64,000 nucleotides of DNA from assembly GCA_012103255.1 (NCBI GenBank), contig WLXD01000006.1, forward strand, positions 62,001 through 126,000, written 5' to 3'. This document shows, one piece after another, positions 8,298 to 23,115 of the stretch; within the stretch, counting starts at the first letter, position 1, and each line of letters opens with the position of its first letter. The position numbers and the translations under genes are program-made. Under the pieces are notes generated by a model. That model had not been told where the DNA came from and did no database searches. It saw only the letters and a program-made list of their open reading frames with translations. This stretch comes from Acidobacteriota bacterium. Lineage in GTDB: Bacteria > Acidobacteriota > UBA890 > WLXD01.

Positions 8298-10477
8298 ATG
8301 CGGCAGAAGGTCGCGAACGCCGGGGCGACGAAATCGCCAGGAGCTCCGGCGCGCAACAGGTCGGCCACAAGCGATGTGGCGGCGCAGGCACCAGGAACCA
8401 AATCCGTGAGCGTCGTGGAGTCCGCCTCGCCGAGAGTCAGTAGCCACCCGACCGCCACATGAAGGTCGTGCAGGCTCGCCAGAATCGAGCCAAGTTCGCT
8501 GGAATCCGTCGGCGGGCCAATTTCCACCGAGGCTTGAGCGATGCCAAGCGGAGTACTGACGCGACCAGATGCCTGCCCAGAGTCCCCAAGCGCCCACCAG
8601 GCAAGAAGTTCTACTCCGCCTCGCTGCAGCGGCCTCTCGGGTCCGACCACGGTCGAGCCGCGCGATAGATCGTCGGTGGCAACGGCCGTCGCGGCCGCCG
8701 GCCAAGTTGCCGGACCGCGCGGCCTTTCGAACCAACTCAGACGTCGACCCGACCCCACAGCGCGAAGAGTGAGGTCGTAGGCCGTAAGCGGCGGCCGGTC
8801 GGCGAGCCTATTGAGCACCTGTCCGGCAATAGCCGACTGCAGAAAACCCAGGGCTGATTGAGTTGCGACTCGCGCTGGACTCGATGATCCCCCGACCTGG
8901 ATCGGGTCGGCTAGCCACACGGTGAGCTCGCCCGGAGAACTTGCCGAAGCCGGACGATAGTTGAGAGCCACCAAGCGAACGTCGGGGCGCTGCACCGGAG
9001 TCGCGCGGGGAACCCGATCGGCCGCTGCCAGCAGCGCTAAACCGATCGCCTCGGTACCGTGGTCAGAGAAGCTCTGCCAGGCACGAATTGCCTCCACGTG
9101 CAGGGCAACCGCGGGGTGAACAAGCGGCTCCTCCTCCAACTCCTCGGTATCAAACGCAGGCAGCGCCGGGGCTGGGGTCCTGTCCACGTCCGATTCGGAC
9201 TCCAGATCGTCGGCCTCCTCCTCGCGTGGGCGCAGTCTCCACGCTTCAAGGGCCGTCAACTCGGTGGCGAGCAGCTGGTCCATCGTCGAATAGAGGTCGT
9301 TGACCTGGCTCGCGTACGCCGCCGGGCGCACTGCCCCTCCCGCCAAGACAACGGTGAGATGACCAAGCGGATCGGAGCCAAAAGGAAGCGTGGCCTGAAC
9401 GTGGCGCCCCGGCGGCACCTCGACGTCCAGTAGCAGCCGCACGTCCGCAAGCTGCTCCCGCGCCACCGGAAGCGCGGAAATCGCACGTCCAGCAGCGCGG
9501 ATCTCAAGACTCACGGGACCGGGCGGAATGTCCCGCAGGGCCTCGTGTATCGGCGCAGGATCAAGCGGGTCATGCACCACCAACTGGTCCGAATCCGTCG
9601 TGTCCAGATCTTCCGCAGCTGGCAGTCCCGCAGATTCGATGACCGGATCCACCGTGGGCTCAGCATCAACTTCTTCGATCATCGGCCTGGCAAGTGCCAC
9701 GTGAACTGCCGAACCGAACAGCTCCGGCATTGGAAGCACCACGCCCGCAAGACGACGATTGGCCGCCACAAGTTCAATCCGCACGCTGGCAACCCACCGC
9801 GAGGGCACCTCCTCCACAGCTTCGCCACGGCGTCCGAATTCGTCGCCGAGGGTCGCATCGCGGAACGCGGGGTCCAGGGATGTCCAGCTTCCGCCCTGCC
9901 GCACCTGCACCCACCAGTGATCCGACGCTGCTTCCACTCGCCGCAACCACGGGTCGCCGCGGGCGGGACGCGCGCCAGGGCGCTCGCCCGCTAGTTGTTC
10001 CGCCCGCGCCCAGCCCAACCGGCCGAGAACCAACCGCGCCCGATGTCCCGCGGCCACCAGCAGTTCCCGCAGCAGCAGCGCCTGATCGAGCGCATTGCCT
10101 CCACCCGAACGAAGCGCACCGGCAGCGCCGCGAATACTGCCGGCGTAAGGCTCATATGCGATGCGACGCTGCACGTATCGGAAGTGAATCGAAACGTCGG
10201 CGCCAAGAGTGGCGGCCAGGCCCGTGACACTCCCCGCCACGTCGGCATCTGGCGGGGAGGTCAGTTCGGCGATTGCCTCGACGTCCTCGCGCTCGAAAAA
10301 CGTCCGTATTGGTGCCTCCACCTCGACTGGCCAGGCCCAGTCCGGGAGCTCTTCCGGAAGCTCTTCCTGGGGCGCTCCGTGGGCGTGAACCCGCGCGGGC
10401 ACGGGGAGCACGAGGAGCAGCGCAACTGCCGCCGCCAGCCAGCGGCCCAGAGATCGCGACGACGGTGAAAAGAGCAT
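8282..10477 (-). CDS. Secreted transglutaminase-fold protein with Asn at the Cys position
   Basis: From the ATG at 10477 the product is 731 residues, with a signal peptide ending near PARVHAHG. Residues about 85-210 match the transglutaminase-like core: GGGNALDQALLLRELL, DHWWVQV (His187) and SLDPAF (Asp202). The residue aligned with the catalytic Cys is Asn128, as in a known group of transglutaminase-like domains with a GNxxDQA signature, so classical catalysis is unlikely. The remaining roughly 500 residues are Ala/Leu-rich with acidic stretches and match no domain I recognise. It is divergent from the amidohydrolase gene and convergent with the peptidase. Confidence 0.65.
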   Translation of the reverse strand: MLFSPSSRSLGRWLAAAVALLLVLPVPARVHAHGAPQEELPEELPDWAWPVEVEAPIRTFFEREDVEAIAELTSPPDADVAGSVTGLAATLGADVSIHFRYVQRRIAYEPYAGSIRGAAGALRSGGGNALDQALLLRELLVAAGHRARLVLGRLGWARAEQLAGERPGARPARGDPWLRRVEAASDHWWVQVRQGGSWTSLDPAFRDATLGDEFGRRGEAVEEVPSRWVASVRIELVAANRRLAGVVLPMPELFGSAVHVALARPMIEEVDAEPTVDPVIESAGLPAAEDLDTTDSDQLVVHDPLDPAPIHEALRDIPPGPVSLEIRAAGRAISALPVAREQLADVRLLLDVEVPPGRHVQATLPFGSDPLGHLTVVLAGGAVRPAAYASQVNDLYSTMDQLLATELTALEAWRLRPREEEADDLESESDVDRTPAPALPAFDTEELEEEPLVHPAVALHVEAIRAWQSFSDHGTEAIGLALLAAADRVPRATPVQRPDVRLVALNYRPASASSPGELTVWLADPIQVGGSSSPARVATQSALGFLQSAIAGQVLNRLADRPPLTAYDLTLRAVGSGRRLSWFERPRGPATWPAAATAVATDDLSRGSTVVGPERPLQRGGVELLAWWALGDSGQASGRVSTPLGIAQASVEIGPPTDSSELGSILASLHDLHVAVGWLLTLGEADSTTLTDLVPGACAATSLVADLLRAGAPGDFVAPAFATFCRIQASS

Positions 10478-10484
10478 GGCGGCC

Positions 10485-10513
10485 ACGTTATGGCTGCCCC
10501 GCACATGTGTCAA
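10485..10513 (-). promoter_or_regulatory. Promoter candidate for the transglutaminase-fold gene, possibly leaderless
   Basis: A perfect TTGACA box (10508-10513, minus strand) and TAACGT (10485-10490) are spaced by 17 bases. The predicted transcript would begin at about 10478, next to the ATG at 10477, and no Shine-Dalgarno sequence is visible. Confidence 0.5.
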
Positions 10514-10607
10514 TTCGTCGAGCGTCGATCCGAGCCTCGTTTGCCGGATCCGCACACCTCGGGCCGGTTACAATCGCCTCCCGGTCAACAACCCACGGAC
10601 GACACCC

Positions 10608-12134
10608 ATGTATCGCACTGCGATCGCCATCCTCGCTTCGCTGGCAGCATTCGGCTGCGGGCCCCCTGGTCCCGCCGGGCCGGACATGATTCTCACCGGG
10701 GCAACGATCTACCCCTCCCCCGGCGCAGATCCTGTCGAGGCTCTCGCTATTCAGGGCAACGAGGTGATCGCCGTCGGCTCCGATGCTGAGATCCGCGCGC
10801 TTGCAAGCGACGACACCCAGGAAATGGCTCTGGAGGGCGCGGTAGTGCTGCCTGGGTTCCACGATGCTTGGGTCGATCTCTTCAAGTTGAGCGCCGTCGA
10901 CCGACGCGTAGACCTGCGGCTCACGACGTCCGAACGCGATGTGCAAGCCAAGCTGCGAGCAGCCCTCCCATCCCACGAGGGTGCCGTAATCGGCTGGGGT
11001 TGGGATGAGCGGCGCTGGCCGTCAGCGGCTGCCCCGACGAGCGCCGCGCTCGACACGGTAGCAACCGATCAAACGATCGTTCTCTACCGCAGAGACGGTC
11101 GCGTGGCCTGGCTTAATTCGGCCGCGCTCGAGGCTGCGCAGGTCGCGGACCAGACGTTGACTCTGAACGGCTTGAGAACCGGGCTCGTCGGCGGGGCGGC
11201 CCTGGCTGTCGTAGATCAGATGCTGCAAATCGAGGAGTCGGAGCTTGTGCGCGAAGGTGTGCTGGGGGCGTTCCGCGCCGCGGCGGCTGCGGGCCTTACA
11301 AGCATCGCCACGGCACCGCTCTCGGAACAACAAGCCGGATTGCTCGCGAGCCTGGATCCGGCGGAGATCACCATCAGGGTGCACGGACGGGTGGCGCCGG
11401 GCGTACGGCCTCCGGCACCGGCGGGGCGACTTCTCTTCGATGCGGTAGGGGTGGAAGCCGACGGCCCCATCGCGCTTGGTCTGGCTGCGCGAGACGACAA
11501 CGCGAGCTCGCTCGCCGACATCGATGCCGCCTGCGCAGCAGCAACAGCGGCCGCGCTTCCCCTCGACGTACAGGTGCGAGGAGAAGGGGGCGTCGCCCGG
11601 GCGGCAGCCTGTCCCGTCGCGCGCCTGATCGTCGGCGCCGACCTGATGCCGCCCACCGACTTCACGATGTCTGCGAAGTTTGTCGCGGTTCCGGGTCGCA
11701 TGACCCACGATATGTACTGGCTCGACGATGTGGTTGGTGCCGACGTCGAACTCGCCCACAGCTATCGAACCTGGGCGCGGCAGGGCTGGCTGGGCGGTAT
11801 CGCTTCGGACGCCCCCGCGAACGATCTACGACCAGTCGAAGCGCTTCGCGCGATGTTCACTCGGCGCGACCGAGAAGGCTTCCCTTTGGACGGATGGCGG
11901 GCAACGGAGAGGCTCTCGCCGGTTGACACCGCCCGTGCAGCACTCTCGGCCGGCGCTGTGTCATCGGAGATTGCGCCGGGCCGGCCAGCCGATCTCGTGG
12001 TGTGGTCGGAGGACTTCTTCGCGAGCGATGAAACGATTGCCCGAGCCCAGGCGATGCTGGTCTTCGTAGACGGACGGGTGATCTACTCGCGACCCCTCGT
12101 GACACCCAACCTGGATCGCCGTCAACGGCCCTGA
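10608..12134 (+). CDS. Lipoprotein amidohydrolase_3 (YtcJ-like) homologue lacking metal ligands
   Basis: The ATG at 10608 gives a 508-residue lipoprotein precursor with a lipobox ending at Cys17. The body follows the YtcJ-like amidohydrolase pattern: N-terminal beta-sandwich (DMILTGATIY...VEALAIQGNEVIAVG), TDQTIVLYRRDGRVAWLNSAAL, and a C-terminal return with RPADLVVWSEDFF. The metal-binding HxH after PGF is replaced by Trp88-Val-Asp90 (LPGFHDAWVD). The later His sites appear as Arg324 (VQVRGEGG) and as VGA in LIVGADL, while the late Asp (SDAP) remains. It probably no longer binds catalytic metals and may bind a ligand instead. No Shine-Dalgarno sequence precedes the start. Confidence 0.75.
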   Translation: MYRTAIAILASLAAFGCGPPGPAGPDMILTGATIYPSPGADPVEALAIQGNEVIAVGSDAEIRALASDDTQEMALEGAVVLPGFHDAWVDLFKLSAVDRRVDLRLTTSERDVQAKLRAALPSHEGAVIGWGWDERRWPSAAAPTSAALDTVATDQTIVLYRRDGRVAWLNSAALEAAQVADQTLTLNGLRTGLVGGAALAVVDQMLQIEESELVREGVLGAFRAAAAAGLTSIATAPLSEQQAGLLASLDPAEITIRVHGRVAPGVRPPAPAGRLLFDAVGVEADGPIALGLAARDDNASSLADIDAACAAATAAALPLDVQVRGEGGVARAAACPVARLIVGADLMPPTDFTMSAKFVAVPGRMTHDMYWLDDVVGADVELAHSYRTWARQGWLGGIASDAPANDLRPVEALRAMFTRRDREGFPLDGWRATERLSPVDTARAALSAGAVSSEIAPGRPADLVVWSEDFFASDETIARAQAMLVFVDGRVIYSRPLVTPNLDRRQRP

Positions 12135-16283: not shown

Positions 16284-17009
16284 ATGGACAACGCATTGTA
16301 CGCGGAGGATCTCGCCTACATTCATGATGCGGGATTCTCGCACCATGCCCGCGGTACAGCGGCTGGACTCCTGCGTGTCCTAAGTCAGGGCGGCCTGAAC
16401 AACGGTCGCATTGTGGAACTCGGGTGCGGCGGTGGTGTCACGGCCCGTCACCTCACGCAGGCGGGCTACGACGTATTGGGGGTGGATCAGTCCGCCGAAC
16501 TGCTGCGACTCGCTCGCCAACGGGTTCCACAAGCAAAGTTCCGACGAGCGTCGATCTTCGATTTCGAGATACCCACCGCAGCGGCGGTGTTGTCCATGGG
16601 CGAATGTCTCGGCTATCGGCCGGGGCGCCGAGGCGGCACGGGACCCATGATGACCGTGCTCAAACGTGCGCACCGAGCGCTGCCGGCCGGCGGGATGCTG
16701 ATCTTCGACCTTGTGACACCGCGGGTTCCCGCGCAGGCCACTTTCATCCGCCAGGGAGACGATTGGTTTCTCGTTTCGGAGAACACCCGAGAGAGCGCTG
16801 GCGCCTGGCTACGCCGCGACATCACGACCTTCCGTCAGGTTGGGCGCAACTACCGCCGGAGCTTCGAGCAGCATCACGTACAACTCTATGACGCGACTCT
16901 TCTCGCCGATCGACTACGCCGAATCGGATTCGCGGTTCGCGTTCGCCGGTCAATCGACGGCTATGCACTCGCCCCAGGGCGCGCACTGTTCCTCGCACGC
17001 AAACGTTGA
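16284..17009 (+). CDS. Class I SAM-dependent methyltransferase
   Basis: The 241-residue protein has the S-adenosylmethionine motif I (GRIVELGCGGGVTARHL), the acidic motif II end (VLGVDQS) and a motif III-like stretch (AAAVLSMGECLGY). It belongs to the broad Methyltransf_25-type group; the substrate cannot be read. The fold is complete and no membrane segment is present. Its stop codon lies 38 bases before the start I prefer for the large fusion gene, so co-transcription is likely. Confidence 0.8.
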   Translation: MDNALYAEDLAYIHDAGFSHHARGTAAGLLRVLSQGGLNNGRIVELGCGGGVTARHLTQAGYDVLGVDQSAELLRLARQRVPQAKFRRASIFDFEIPTAAAVLSMGECLGYRPGRRGGTGPMMTVLKRAHRALPAGGMLIFDLVTPRVPAQATFIRQGDDWFLVSENTRESAGAWLRRDITTFRQVGRNYRRSFEQHHVQLYDATLLADRLRRIGFAVRVRRSIDGYALAPGRALFLARKR

Positions 17010-17047: not shown

Positions 17048-20000
17048 TTGATTCACTCGCGCGCGCGTATCCCCTGGGCGCTCTGCATTGCATTCATGAC
17101 GTTTGCCAGCTCCGGCTTTGCCCGGACGCCGTCCGAGTCTCTGTCAGCTCAGGACGGCACCCGGCTGGTCGAGTTCACGACCACGACCGGCACCTGGGTA
17201 TCCGTCGACGTGAATCCCGATGGAGATCTGCTGGTCTTCGATCTCCTAGGCGATCTCTACACCCTCCCGACGTCCGGAGGCACCGCAACGCCGCTGATCC
17301 AGGGGCCGGCATTCGACTCGCAGCCTCGCTACTCCCCGGCCGGCGACACGATCGTCTACGTGAGCGACGCCACGGGATCAGACAATCTCTGGCTCGCTCG
17401 TGCGGATGGCACCGACGCACACGCCATCACTGCGCTGCCTCGATCGCTGATCCTCTCGCCCATCTGGCGGGCCGACGGCGGTGCGATCTACGCAACGGTG
17501 GTGAACCCCGGGCAGCAAGCCGCGGCTGAGATCTGGGAATTCCCGGTGGGACAGGGCGACGGTGTTCGAGTTGTTGAAAACGTCAACGGCCGACCGGCCC
17601 CGCTGGTGTCCTCACCTGCCCCGGGGGCGTACAGCCCGACACCGGCACCGGACGGATCGCTGTACTACACGTCCCTGACGCCGCGGCCGTACGGTAGTCG
17701 TAGCGGCGCCTCTAGCGCGGTGATGCGATTCGACGGGAAAGCTGCAACGAACGGCCGCGTTGCGCTTGGCAGCGCCCGGTCGATGAAACCGACGGTGGCA
17801 CCAGACGGCAGCTTTCTGATCTATGCCGCAGAAGCCCGCGGTCAGACCGGGCTGAAGTTGCGCGACCTCGGATCGGGCGACGAACGCTGGCTCGCCTATC
17901 CGATTCAACGGAATCAACTCGAGTCTCGTGCCACACGAGACGTGCTTCCGAACTACTCGATCAGTCGCGATTCCCAGACTGTGTTCGCTGCATTCGGCGG
18001 AAGAATTCGAAAAATCGACGTCGCGACAGGATCCAGCCAGGTCGTTCCGTTCACGGCCGACGTCAAACTAGAGGTGGAGCCGCGGCTCACATTCCCGCGA
18101 GCAGTCGACACTGGTCCCGTTCAACCTCGGCGCTACCAGAGCGTTGCTGCCGGACCGGGATCAACTGTCGCGGTCGCTACGACCGGGCGGATCTTCATCG
18201 TCGAAGAAGGCGGGCGGCCCACCCGACTCACTGACACTCCCCGACCGCGCGAGTACATGCCCGCTTGGTCGCCGGATGGCAAGTGGATCGCGTACGTGAC
18301 CTGGGACGGCGACGGCGGCCACCTGTGGCGAGCCGCCGCGAACGGGTCCGAGGCGCCGCAGCGGCTCTCCACGGACCCGGCGATGTGGCTGGATCCCGTG
18401 TGGGCACCGGACGGAGAGTCGATCGTGGCCCTCCGAGCGCCGCTCACGTCGGTCCGCACTTCTCCTGCTGGCGCGCCGTCCGATCTCGAGATCGTTGCGG
18501 TGCCGACGGATGGCACTCCAAGCAGCCTGGGACCCGCCAACGGCCTGCGGGGGCCACACTTCACGAGGAGCGACGCCACAAAGATCTTCCTTGGAGGATT
18601 GGCAGGCCTCACGTCTGTCGAAATCGAAAGCGGACATCGGCGGCTCGAGGTGCCTGCGCCGGAATCCGCGGGCCGAGGCGGAGGGTTCGGACCGCCCCGC
18701 CCACCCGAGTGGAGGCTCTCCCCGGACGGTGGCCGCGTGGCACTGCGACACCCGGGCGCCCCGGTTGTCACATACGCCAGACCTGCGACCGGAATGGCCG
18801 TGGCCGCCGACGGCGGATCGCCGGTTGAGGGCTCAGAAGCAGCGGCGAGTTTTGCCTGGGCGGACGGTGAGATCGTATGGCTCGAGCACGGCGCGCTGGC
18901 ACGGGTCGAAGACGGTACGTCTCAACGCCGGGCGTTGGAGATCGAACTTCCGCGTGCGACGCCAACGGGCACCATCGTGCTTCGCGGTGGCACAGCAATC
19001 ACGATGCGTGGTGACGAGGTGATTGAGAACGCGGACATCATCGTGACAGACAACCGTATTGTCGCCGTCGGGCCTGCAGGATCTGCCCCGGCCGAGGCCC
19101 GCGTGGTCGACATCTCGGGCAAGTACGTGGTGCCCGGTTTCATCGACGTTCACGCGCATTTTCCAACGCCCGCGAACCTCTATGAACCGGATGGACCGGC
19201 CGCCCTTGCCAACCTCGCCTTTGGCGTCACCTCACTACGCAACCCTCAGGCGAGCCCGGACGTATTCGCTCTCGCCGACATGGTTGCCGCGGATGGGAGC
19301 CCGGCTCCCCGGATCTTCTCGACAGGACCGGGAATCTTCAGCTTTGCCAACATCCAATCGCTCGACCACGCCCGAGCGACGCTGACGCGATACCGCGACG
19401 AGTACCGGACTCACCTCATCAAGTCGTACCTACCCGGCAACCGCCAACAACGCCAATGGATCGTCGCCGCGAGTCGGGAACTCGAGATGATGACAACAAC
19501 CGAGGGCGGGGCCGATACGAAGGCCAACCTCACTCACGCGATCGATGGTTTCAGCGGCAACGAACACGCTCTGCCGGTAGCGCCGTTCTATGACGATGTG
19601 GTGCAACTTCTGGCTCGCTCCGGAATCACATACGCCCCCACGCTCGTGGTGTCGTTCGGTGCCGCACTCCCCGTCTTCCGATTGCTCGCCAACGAACGGC
19701 CCTACGAGAACGTCCAGCTGACTCCGTGGTTCGACGAGGAAGAGCTCTTTGCACGGTCGGCGACACGTCTGCTGGCGTTTCCCGACATCGCCTACAACGA
19801 TCTCGACGCATCGCGGTCGGCGCGAGACGTTCTCGAAGCTGGTGGCCGCGTGGCTTTAGGCGGCCACGGAGAAGCGCAAGGACTGTCGAACCACTGGGAG
19901 ATGGAACTCCTGGCGGCCGGCGGCATGAGCACGCACGACGTCCTCCGCGTCGCCACGCTTCATGGCGCGGAAGCACTGGGCTATGCCTCCGACCTGGGAA

Positions 20001-21523
20001 GCCTGGAGCCTGGAAAGCTCGCCGACCTTGTGGTGCTCGACCGAAACCCACTCGTCGACATCAGAGCCACAACGGCGATTCAGCACGTCATGAAGAACGG
20101 GGTTCTCTACGCGAGCGATCTGGCCGAGCTGTGGCCAACTGTGCGCCCGGCTCCGGCACCCTGGAGAACCCGACGTGACGACGCGACGATCGAGATGCGT
20201 ATCGACGAGTTGGTGCGCGGCAGCATGGGCTCCGGAAAGATTCCGGGAGCCGCGGTAGCGATTATCCAAGATGGCGAGCCCACGCTGGCACGTGGCTACG
20301 GCGTCGCGAATCTCGAGAACGACGTCCGGGTGTCTGACGCGACGATGTTCCAATCGGGGTCACTCGGCAAGCAGTTCACGACCGCTGGCATCATGGCGCT
20401 AGTAGAGGACGGCGTACTCGATCTCGACGGGTCCGTCCGGGAGCATCTGCCCGAGACGCCCGAGACCTGGAACGCGATCACGGTCAGACACCTGCTTACA
20501 CACGCGTCGGGCATCCCCGACTACACCGGCGAACGATTCGACTACACGCGGAACTACAGCGAGCAGGATCTCGTACGCCTCGCCTCGGAACTCGAACTCG
20601 AGTTCATTGCCGGCACGCGATGGAACTACTCGAACACCGGCTATGTGATGCTCGGCGTGATCATGAGCCGTGTTACCGGCGCGCCATACTGGGAGTATCT
20701 TCGCGAGAGGATCTTCGATCCTGCGGGCATGCCGACAATCCGGGTCAACACCGAGGCCGCGATAGTGCCGCACCGGGCGCGCGGCTACCGACCTACTCCC
20801 GATGGCTGGCGCCATGCCGACTGGGTGGCTCCCGACCTCAACACAACAGCCGACGGATCGATGCTATTGAGCCTGCGCGACATCGCGGCGTGGCATCAAA
20901 CCGTTCGCAGCCGTTCGGTGCTTTCGGCCAACAGCTGGGAGTTGATCCTCTCCCCCATGACCCTGTCTTCCGGGGCTCGATATCCCTATGGCTTCGGATG
21001 GTTCATCGACTCGGTCGGCGACCACCCGATGCTGCACCACAGCGGGTCCTGGCAAGGGTTCACGACGCAGTATTCATACTTCCCTGATCAGGATCTTGGG
21101 GTGCTCGTGCTCGCCAACGCGCGGTCCATCTCGGCGATTACGCTTGCCGGTCAGATCGCCGCGGTGATAGCCCCCGAACTACGGCCTGTGCCGCCCGCGA
21201 CTGAGCCGATCCCCGACCCGCATCCAGAGGTGAGCAGATATGTGGCGGCCATGCTGGCCAAGTCTGCGGCCGGAACGCTCGAACTCGCCGACTTCGCGTT
21301 CGTGCGGCAAACCGTGTTCCCTCGGATGCAGCGTGCGCTATTCGGTGCCCTCGACGGGTTGGGCGCACCCGACCGGCTTGAGTTGTTGAGCACCGAGGTT
21401 GTCGGCGACGATACGACCTTGCAGTACTGGGCCTGGTTCGGAGAGCGGCGCTTTCGGGTCCTCAGCAGCGTGGCTCCCGCCGGGGGCCTCACAGCGCTAC
21501 GCGTCTTGGAACCACCCGAATGA
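17048..21523 (+). CDS. Secreted TolB-like propeller / amidohydrolase / serine beta-lactamase fusion
   Basis: I start at the TTG at 17048, which has AGGAGA five bases upstream and opens a signal peptide ending near SGFA; an upstream TTG at 17006 would bury it. The 1491-residue product has three parts. Residues about 30-620 are a TolB/WD40-like propeller with repeats such as YSPAGDTIVYVSDATGSDNLW. Residues about 636-1040 are a metal-dependent amidohydrolase with PGFIDVHAHF (His702, His704). Residues about 1045-1400 are a serine beta-lactamase/penicillin-binding fold with Ser1105-x-x-Lys1108, Tyr1194-Ser-Asn1196 and His1331-x-Gly1333. All three beta-lactamase motifs are intact. It probably acts outside the cytoplasm on peptides or amides. 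Its stop overlaps the next ATG. Confidence 0.88.
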   Translation: MIHSRARIPWALCIAFMTFASSGFARTPSESLSAQDGTRLVEFTTTTGTWVSVDVNPDGDLLVFDLLGDLYTLPTSGGTATPLIQGPAFDSQPRYSPAGDTIVYVSDATGSDNLWLARADGTDAHAITALPRSLILSPIWRADGGAIYATVVNPGQQAAAEIWEFPVGQGDGVRVVENVNGRPAPLVSSPAPGAYSPTPAPDGSLYYTSLTPRPYGSRSGASSAVMRFDGKAATNGRVALGSARSMKPTVAPDGSFLIYAAEARGQTGLKLRDLGSGDERWLAYPIQRNQLESRATRDVLPNYSISRDSQTVFAAFGGRIRKIDVATGSSQVVPFTADVKLEVEPRLTFPRAVDTGPVQPRRYQSVAAGPGSTVAVATTGRIFIVEEGGRPTRLTDTPRPREYMPAWSPDGKWIAYVTWDGDGGHLWRAAANGSEAPQRLSTDPAMWLDPVWAPDGESIVALRAPLTSVRTSPAGAPSDLEIVAVPTDGTPSSLGPANGLRGPHFTRSDATKIFLGGLAGLTSVEIESGHRRLEVPAPESAGRGGGFGPPRPPEWRLSPDGGRVALRHPGAPVVTYARPATGMAVAADGGSPVEGSEAAASFAWADGEIVWLEHGALARVEDGTSQRRALEIELPRATPTGTIVLRGGTAITMRGDEVIENADIIVTDNRIVAVGPAGSAPAEARVVDISGKYVVPGFIDVHAHFPTPANLYEPDGPAALANLAFGVTSLRNPQASPDVFALADMVAADGSPAPRIFSTGPGIFSFANIQSLDHARATLTRYRDEYRTHLIKSYLPGNRQQRQWIVAASRELEMMTTTEGGADTKANLTHAIDGFSGNEHALPVAPFYDDVVQLLARSGITYAPTLVVSFGAALPVFRLLANERPYENVQLTPWFDEEELFARSATRLLAFPDIAYNDLDASRSARDVLEAGGRVALGGHGEAQGLSNHWEMELLAAGGMSTHDVLRVATLHGAEALGYASDLGSLEPGKLADLVVLDRNPLVDIRATTAIQHVMKNGVLYASDLAELWPTVRPAPAPWRTRRDDATIEMRIDELVRGSMGSGKIPGAAVAIIQDGEPTLARGYGVANLENDVRVSDATMFQSGSLGKQFTTAGIMALVEDGVLDLDGSVREHLPETPETWNAITVRHLLTHASGIPDYTGERFDYTRNYSEQDLVRLASELELEFIAGTRWNYSNTGYVMLGVIMSRVTGAPYWEYLRERIFDPAGMPTIRVNTEAAIVPHRARGYRPTPDGWRHADWVAPDLNTTADGSMLLSLRDIAAWHQTVRSRSVLSANSWELILSPMTLSSGARYPYGFGWFIDSVGDHPMLHHSGSWQGFTTQYSYFPDQDLGVLVLANARSISAITLAGQIAAVIAPELRPVPPATEPIPDPHPEVSRYVAAMLAKSAAGTLELADFAFVRQTVFPRMQRALFGALDGLGAPDRLELLSTEVVGDDTTLQYWAWFGERRFRVLSSVAPAGGLTALRVLEPPE

Positions 21524-23115
21524 CCTGGCGTCAACGAGCGGCCGGGTCAGTTCTCCTGATGGCCATCAGTTGCACCCCGGCAGGGCCGACCTACGATGTG
21601 GTCCTGCGTGGGGGCAAGCTGGTTGACGGCACTGGTGCTCCTGGACGGCCAGGAGATGTTGCCGTGCGCGACGGTCGCATCGTTGCGATCGCTGAGTCTC
21701 TGCCCGGCTCTGGGCTCGAGGAGCTCGACGTGACCGACCTGATCGTGTCGCCGGGCTTTTTGGGACAACCACGCGCACCTCGTCGACCTCGAGTCGAACA
21801 CAGACGCCGAGAACTTCGTGCGTCAAGGAATCACGACGGTCAGCGCCGCGCTCCACAGCCAGCCTCAGATCGCGGATATGACCGCTTATCGTGAACGGGT
21901 TCATATGGCGCCCAACGTACTCCTATTCGCCGGCCACACCTGGATTCGTGAGCAAGTGCTCGGTCGCGACAACAGGCGGCCGACCGGCTCCGAACTCAGC
22001 GCAATGGCTGACCTTGTCCGAGCGGCCATGCAAGACCATGCATTCGGACTTGCCAGCGGCCTCGAATACACACCGGCAGCGTTCGCCAATACCGATGAAC
22101 TGATCCATCTGGCACGCGTGGCCTCAGAGTATGGCGGCATGTACGTCACGCACATGCGGGACGAGGGAGTAAGAGTCCTCGAGGCGGTCAGCGAAGCCCT
22201 CGCCATAGGAAGGGAGGCCGGCGTTCCCGTTCTGATAAACCACCACAAGGTGACGGGGGCCGAGCAGTTCGGCCAGACGGAGCTGACCCTCGCACTGATC
22301 GATGTCGCAGTCGAGGCCGGCCAGCGTGTCGCCCTGGACGTGTACCCGTACACCGCCTACAGCACCTACTCGGATCTCATGTTTCCGCCATGGGCACTCG
22401 AGGGGACGTCGCAAGACTTCGCCGAACGCGTCGGCGACCCGGATACTCGCGCCCGACTCGTCGCCGAGATGATCGAGATCTTCCCGCGCCAGACCGGCAG
22501 CGACGCCGCGAGCGTGCAGTTTCGCGAAGTCGACGGCCGTCCAGACCTGACCGGCCGGACGCTGGCCGACTACCTGGAGCAGACTGGCAGATCTGCCGAT
22601 CTCGACGCCGCGGTCGACGCCCTGATCGAGCTCCAGCTGAACGGCCGGTTCATCGGAATCTTTCACGGAATGAGCGAAGGCGACATCCGGCGGCTCATGC
22701 GTCACCCGTGACGATGTTCGAAACCGACGGCGATCTCGTATCTCCCGGGGTCGGATTCCCACACCCGCGGAGCTACGGCTCATTCCCGAGGATTCTCGGC
22801 CTGTACGTCAGGGAAGGTGGCGTGCTCGATCTGGAAACGGCGATTCACAAGATGACCGCGCAGCCGGCAACCTGGTACGGTCAGCTCGAGCGCGGTCGCC
22901 TAGAGGCTGGCCTTATGGCCGACATCACCGTATTTGACGCCGCCACAATCGCGGATCAGGCCAGCTACACCGATCCGCACCATTACCCGATCGGCGTCAC
23001 CCACGTCATGATCAACGGTGAACTCGTGCTGCGCGACGGTCAGATGACCGGCCGTCTGCCGGGGCAGTTCCTCTCGCGCGGTGAGGCGGTTCAGCCGAGC
23101 GGGCCCGAACGCTAG
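21520..23115 (+). pseudogene. D-aminoacylase / N-acyl-D-amino-acid deacylase-like lipoprotein gene with two frameshifts
   Basis: The ATG overlaps the preceding stop and opens a possible lipoprotein signal (Cys18), followed by DVVLRGGKLVDGTGAPG and DLIVSPGF, an amidohydrolase start. At a run of five T (21757-21761) the frame shifts by one; in the new frame the expected WDNHAHLVDLESNTDAENF follows, then GLEYTPAAFANTDELIHLA and THMRDEG typical of D-aminoacylases. At CCC (22705-22707) the second frame hits TGA, and in the original frame the family C terminus resumes (MFETDGDLVSPGVGFPHPR...GRLEAGLMADITVFD). One added T and one missing C explain both. It is either a broken gene or two homopolymer sequencing errors. 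Confidence 0.8.

Follow-up and report, generated by a model that had tools for sequence, protein, structure and literature searches.

Does a single reading frame that joins a beta-propeller, an amidohydrolase and a beta-lactamase fold represent one real gene, and, if so, what might the resulting protein do for the bacterium that makes it? The question is raised by positions 17048-21523 (+) of a 64,000-nucleotide stretch of DNA (the window) from an Acidobacteriota bacterium (assembly GCA_012103255.1, contig WLXD01000006.1, positions 62,001 to 126,000 of the forward strand). The locus is a genuine single gene, which encodes an exported three-domain fusion, in which all the parts are of known kinds and the combination is rare.

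In the open reading frame (ORF) check of the window, 1491 codons run without interruption in a single frame, and a Shine-Dalgarno-like AGGAG lies approximately 7 nt upstream of the TTG at 17048. The length of 1491 amino acids (aa) holds if this TTG is the start, the earliest possible start in the ORF listing being the TTG at 17006. The TTG at 17048 is followed by a hydrophobic stretch, ALCIAFMTFASSGFA, and the N-terminus resembles a signal peptide, both by hydropathy and by eye, so that 17048-17125 (+) probably encodes a Sec signal peptide with this core and cleavage near GFA/RTP; no lipobox was seen by eye in the N-terminus. The GC content of third codon positions (GC3) is even across the entire frame (0.64-0.83). 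Pfam recognizes PD40 (E=2.6e-18), Amidohydro_1 (PF01979, E=1.4e-17), and Beta-lactamase (PF00144, E=3.6e-68), in a layout with the propeller at residues ~40-600, the amidohydrolase at ~640-1040, and the beta-lactamase-superfamily domain at 1050-1390, followed by a C-terminal extension. The open frame, the Pfam matches, and the orthologues with the same junction all bear out the claim of the first-pass annotation, made from the sequence of the window, that the three folds are carried on one exported chain of 1491 residues.

The same first pass had named an assembly error as one outcome that would undo this claim, and an error of this type, or a frameshift merging two neighboring genes, would find some support in the next gene, where two apparent one-base frame shifts leave the local sequence quality open to doubt. 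A junction query of 549 aa, run against a complete class of the phylum (193 genomes), bears directly on this point. The junction recurs in two independent genomes: at locus L081, all three domains lie in a frame of 1539 codons, with 57% identity over the junction region, and the same junction is found at L082 with 56% identity, although here the end of the contig cuts the gene upstream, so that no propeller is visible. The three fusion proteins form one clade with 100/100 support in both the S12 tree of the C-terminal domain (50 rows) and the amidohydrolase tree (20 rows), and the proteins of L081 (labelled L071 in the amidohydrolase tree) and L082 are sisters in both. Nor is there a stop or a leftover signal peptide at the join (residues ~1040-1050, by hydropathy), where a short linker (20168-20194, +) of low model confidence connects the amidohydrolase with the final domain. 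Given the two orthologues, complete in L081, and the congruent trees, an assembly artefact is ruled out with near certainty. As both domain trees unite the three fusions, one fusion event is the simplest reading of these sequences.

The combination is uncommon within the Acidobacteriota, as had been supposed, being found in three of the ~543 distinct genomes searched, an approximate number, given that the draws from the phylum overlap. The assignment to this phylum agrees with the RpoA of the window, which shares 60-64% identity with two named Acidobacteria, against 40-48% with records from Caldithrix, Planctomycetota, Gammaproteobacteria, and Bacteroidetes. Only the source genome has the fusion among 297 evenly drawn genomes, and only that of L081 among another draw of 395, while it was recovered in two of the 193 genomes of one class, and in none of 41 genomes of another (that of G152). 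It was also not found in two relatives of the same genus (77% and 92% complete). This scattered distribution over different families, together with the absence from the same-genus relatives, suggests either transfer or repeated loss. A scan of genome contigs with six short peptides recovered six propeller-amidohydrolase loci, none matching into the S12 domain beyond residue 1061, although its sensitivity is too low to establish that the fusion is absent from other phyla. A tblastn search of plasmids returned S12-only matches; one Chelatococcus plasmid row, with 80% query cover, was judged spurious (25% identity, 58 bits). A literature search found no paper on the propeller-amidohydrolase-S12 architecture.

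The C-terminal domain (20195-21217, +; delimited by PF00144, alignment, and models) carries the motifs S1105-L-G-K1108, Y1194-S-N1196, and H1331-S-G1333, in this order, within a PF00144 fold, which places it in the MEROPS S12 / beta-lactamase superfamily. The motifs SLGK, YSN, and HSG are intact, as first noted, and their catalytic residues are invariant across 13 aligned relatives. When the profile of these relatives was compared with solved proteins, Pab87, alkaline D-peptidase, the IS11 esterase, a DD-carboxypeptidase-like D-stereospecific hydrolase, flp, and ClbP ranked first, with D-aminopeptidase also among the best S12 relatives scoring ahead of the beta-lactamases; the class C beta-lactamases fell far behind the peptidases. 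The structure predicted by AlphaFold for residues 605-1491 has a mean predicted local distance difference test (pLDDT) of 85 and a predicted template modeling score (pTM) of 0.59, with the mutual placement of the domains unsure, and Foldseek with this model found Pab87 first and the IS11 esterase second. By motif and score the domain is not a class C beta-lactamase, given that HSG replaces KTG and the NCBIfam bla_class_C model gives 91.4 bits where its cut-off is 415, nor does it reach the cut-off of the D-aminopeptidase equivalog NF009622 (105.9 bits against 443). On sequence, the third motif, HSG, and the nearest solved relatives, which are S12 peptidases and esterases and not class C enzymes, point to a family S12 peptidase and away from a beta-lactamase. 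The initial label of serine beta-lactamase therefore stands for the fold, but not for the class, and a true beta-lactamase is not favored by either the HxG motif or the scores.

Pab87 of Pyrococcus abyssi (PDB 2qmi) is the best match of this domain in both sequence and fold, with SxxK, YxN, and HxG in common, the last being HSG in both. This protease cleaves peptides with D-residues, with D-Ala-p-nitroanilide (D-Ala-pNA) far preferred over the L-form, and takes the terminal D-Ala off muropeptides (PMC2651629). Unlike the fusion, Pab87 stands alone, as an archaeal octamer that carries a C-terminal lipocalin domain but no amidohydrolase. The CubicO group to which it belongs is defined by the additional motifs YAEAF/L, FFYLN, and ERY, and by the lipocalin domain (PMC2651629). 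By eye, these motifs were not found in the fusion, in which the context of the second motif is RWNYSNTGY, rather than FFYLN. The C-terminal extension (21218-21520, +; approximately 100 aa by alignment and model) is predicted to consist of helices followed by four strands, which would be too few for a lipocalin barrel; it is common to many stand-alone S12 relatives. The R61 DD-peptidase of Streptomyces, alkaline D-peptidase, and ClbP also have the fold and motifs of the S12 domain in common with the fusion, but lack the propeller and the amidohydrolase, and the C-terminus of ClbP is transmembrane, unlike that of the fusion.

The N-terminal two-thirds of the chain are of a more familiar kind, with a PD40 propeller N-terminal to an Amidohydro_1 domain on one exported chain, as in the known propeller-amidohydrolase fusions. 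AlphaFold predicts residues 31-1045 as one compact unit (pLDDT 84, pTM 0.87). The PD40/TolB-like region (residues ~40-604; 17165-18859, +), which is supported by the PD40 match, the all-beta model, and Foldseek, could accommodate two propellers by its length, and Foldseek returns tricorn and two-propeller proteins, among others, so that a tandem pair is probably present, judging from the model. The amidohydrolase (18962-20167, +) belongs to the PF01979 superfamily (COG1228-like), and its barrel matches prolidases (Xaa-Pro dipeptidases), also by Foldseek, and Arg/Lys carboxypeptidases. Across 20 aligned rows, drawn from several phyla, H702, H704, K792, E819, H840, and H940 do not vary. These are the residues of its own subgroup, which differ from the canonical binuclear set: HxH, K792, and H840 are in place, while E819 (codon at 19502) stands for the beta-5 His, in an alignment made by eye, and H940 (codon at 19865) for the beta-8 Asp. 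The same columns hold Glu and His in all 20 aligned rows, and the entire propeller-amidohydrolase subgroup, rather than the fusion alone, appears to have a rearranged metal site. The prolidases, the Arg/Lys carboxypeptidases (Cc2672 3mtw, 2qs8, 3feq), and the ochratoxin amidohydrolase ADH3 (8ihq) share the TIM-barrel, the HxH, the Lys, and the PGxxDxHxH motif with the fusion, which differs from them in these two positions and in its propeller. The TolB/PD40 propeller-amidohydrolases that align with residues ~40-1040 over most of their length, and have the same six metal-site candidates, are five paralogues in the source genome and relatives in other phyla; these proteins stop at the amidohydrolase, whereas the fusion has the S12 domain added. 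The five genes of the source genome are located at G000:C1:1313282-1316521, G000:C4:159930-163139, G000:C7:153343-156720, G000:C5:93958-97335, and G000:C1:511795-514869. Many S12 genes are also found in this genome, as part of a large peptide-degrading repertoire, and the window contains a further amidohydrolase (Amidohydro_3) with a lipoprotein-like start at 10476-12134 (+), approximately 5 kb upstream of the fusion.

Two observations that are new concern the surroundings of the S12 domain, that is, the presence of a D-aminoacylase homologue next to the fusion in all three genomes, and the fusion of S12 with D-aminoacylase, in both orders, elsewhere in the phylum. The homologue follows the fusion directly in each case, and in the window it occupies 21520-23115 (+), overlapping the stop of the fusion by ATGA at 21520. 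Identity between its two longer pieces and the fusion-adjoining genes of L081 and L082 is 59-62%; the middle piece, which is the longest, matches the D-aminoacylase 1m7j (E=2.7e-35), and the last is Amidohydro_3. The window copy differs from the D-aminoacylases that it matches (1m7j, 3gip), and from the intact copies of L081 and L082, in being split over three frames by the apparent one-base shifts, near 21757 and 22710, which may represent either recent decay into a pseudogene or small sequence errors. Other relatives of this gene within the source genome are all more distant. The remaining neighbors examined were a methyltransferase, a periplasmic binding protein, an acyl-CoA-synthetase-like gene, and a ribosomal operon.

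The broader linkage was assessed in loci picked by S12 similarity alone, with events counted by clade. Fusions of S12 and D-aminoacylase were found at L053:6882-9395 (-), L089:8000-10492 (+), and L084:6766-10485 (+), which form one clade in the S12 tree, and, in the reverse order, at L086:2549-5092 (+), where the D-aminoacylase portion is broken between two frames. The fusions with S12 ahead of D-aminoacylase lack the C-terminal extension described above. The long frame of L024 is also a fusion of S12 with D-aminoacylase, and the two genes are adjacent in L057. The long frame of L045 was rejected as a read-through, given that nothing on the N-terminal side of its S12 domain matches the domains of the fusion, and that this S12 domain has an ordinary signal-peptide start, MPKKLRAVFSLALLASAATAVAADD, ahead of it. 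Counted by clade, and with the genomes of the three-domain fusion included, the joining or pairing of S12 and D-aminoacylase, in both orders, represents four separate events. Under a rough chance model, with 4-9 D-aminoacylase-like matches per genome and an estimated ~4,500 genes, giving ~0.3% per S12 gene, four in 38 has a probability of ~5e-6, against an expectation of ~0.1, and a doubled rate gives 8e-5. Homologues of S12 and D-aminoacylase also lie near each other in Pyrococcus, where the Pab87 gene is located near a D-aminoacylase gene (PMC2651629).

The D-aminoacylase neighbor in all three genomes, the S12/D-aminoacylase fusions elsewhere, and Pab87 as the closest solved relative together point, with somewhat better than even confidence, to an exported scavenging enzyme for peptides containing D-amino acids, such as peptidoglycan stems or D-residue peptides in debris. 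In this process, the S12 domain, with Ser1105 as nucleophile together with Lys1108 and Tyr1194, would remove D-residues or cut beside them, while the propeller would restrict access to the amidohydrolase to small peptides, and the pieces set free may be hydrolysed by the amidohydrolase, working as a metal-dependent di- or carboxypeptidase. The D-aminoacylase from the next gene would then free D-amino acids from N-acylated or dipeptide products, and, with the first two activities on one chain, intermediates would stay nearby, whether in the periplasm or outside the cell. A more specific version of this reading has the S12 domain, as a D-peptidase, share its substrate with an amidohydrolase whose metal site is rearranged, alongside a co-transcribed D-aminoacylase, so as to form an undescribed extracytoplasmic module of the Acidobacteriota; it is only tentatively proposed, and is rather unlikely to hold in full. 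The idea of D-amino-acid-containing peptides as targets, raised in the first-pass annotation, gains from the linkage, the fusions, and Pab87, while the sequential attack by two active hydrolases suggested there stays a hypothesis, and its beta-lactamase is replaced by a domain that reads as an S12 peptidase.

Several points weigh against the scavenging of D-peptides. We infer the D-directed role from relatives and gene linkage, and the S12 homologues include proteins with no D-specificity, as well as esterases, of which IS11 is the second-best fold match. The canonical beta-8 Asp is missing from the amidohydrolase by alignment, which means that its activity should not be assumed. The downstream D-aminoacylase is frame-broken in the source genome, and the fusion is absent from all eight of the other genomes of the source order (all of the class that was sampled), and is thus not a core function there. 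Some of these points would also fit a general exported amide or ester hydrolase, with the S12 domain as an esterase or L-peptidase devoid of D-specificity, the protein being one of the many digestive enzymes of a genome rich in other propeller-amidohydrolase and S12 genes. The position of IS11 and the action of the prolidase and carboxypeptidase relatives on L-residues are consistent with this view, which remains a minority prospect, given the repeated occurrence of D-aminoacylase homologues linked or fused to this S12 group, and the fact that its top relatives are mostly D-specific enzymes.

The catabolism of beta-lactams, with the S12 domain opening the ring and the amidohydrolase removing the acyl side chain, as in penicillin-growing soil bacteria, would match the order of beta-lactamase and then amidase that is given, after Crofts 2018, in PMC9426598. 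The D-aminoacylase fused to a class-A-like PF13354 domain in the same neighborhood as the L081 fusion (L081:12368-15190, +) might also be cited in its favor, although this domain has no clear ExxLN by eye. Improbable as a whole, this explanation is opposed by the HxG third motif in place of the KTG usual in class C, by the scores of the beta-lactamases, well below those of the peptidases, and by the lack of phenylacetate genes among the few neighbors examined. The gene in question, in which SxxK, SDN, and KTG are visible, is found 3.4 kb farther along, beyond an M20 peptidase gene of the opposite strand. More improbable still is a role in the maturation of, or self-protection against, a nonribosomal peptide, in the manner of ClbP or the D-stereospecific resistance peptidases: in fold and sequence the S12 domain does count ClbP among its near relatives, but no transmembrane segment follows this domain in either the sequence or the model, and the examined neighbors are ordinary genes, with no nonribosomal peptide synthetase seen among them.

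Environmental "beta-lactamase-like" proteins are easily mistaken for resistance genes, and here the gene linkage provides a role that can be tested. Fused and neighboring genes of this kind point to the function of large, mostly unstudied families of such proteins, and what becomes of D-amino-acid-containing peptides in the environment can be tested directly.

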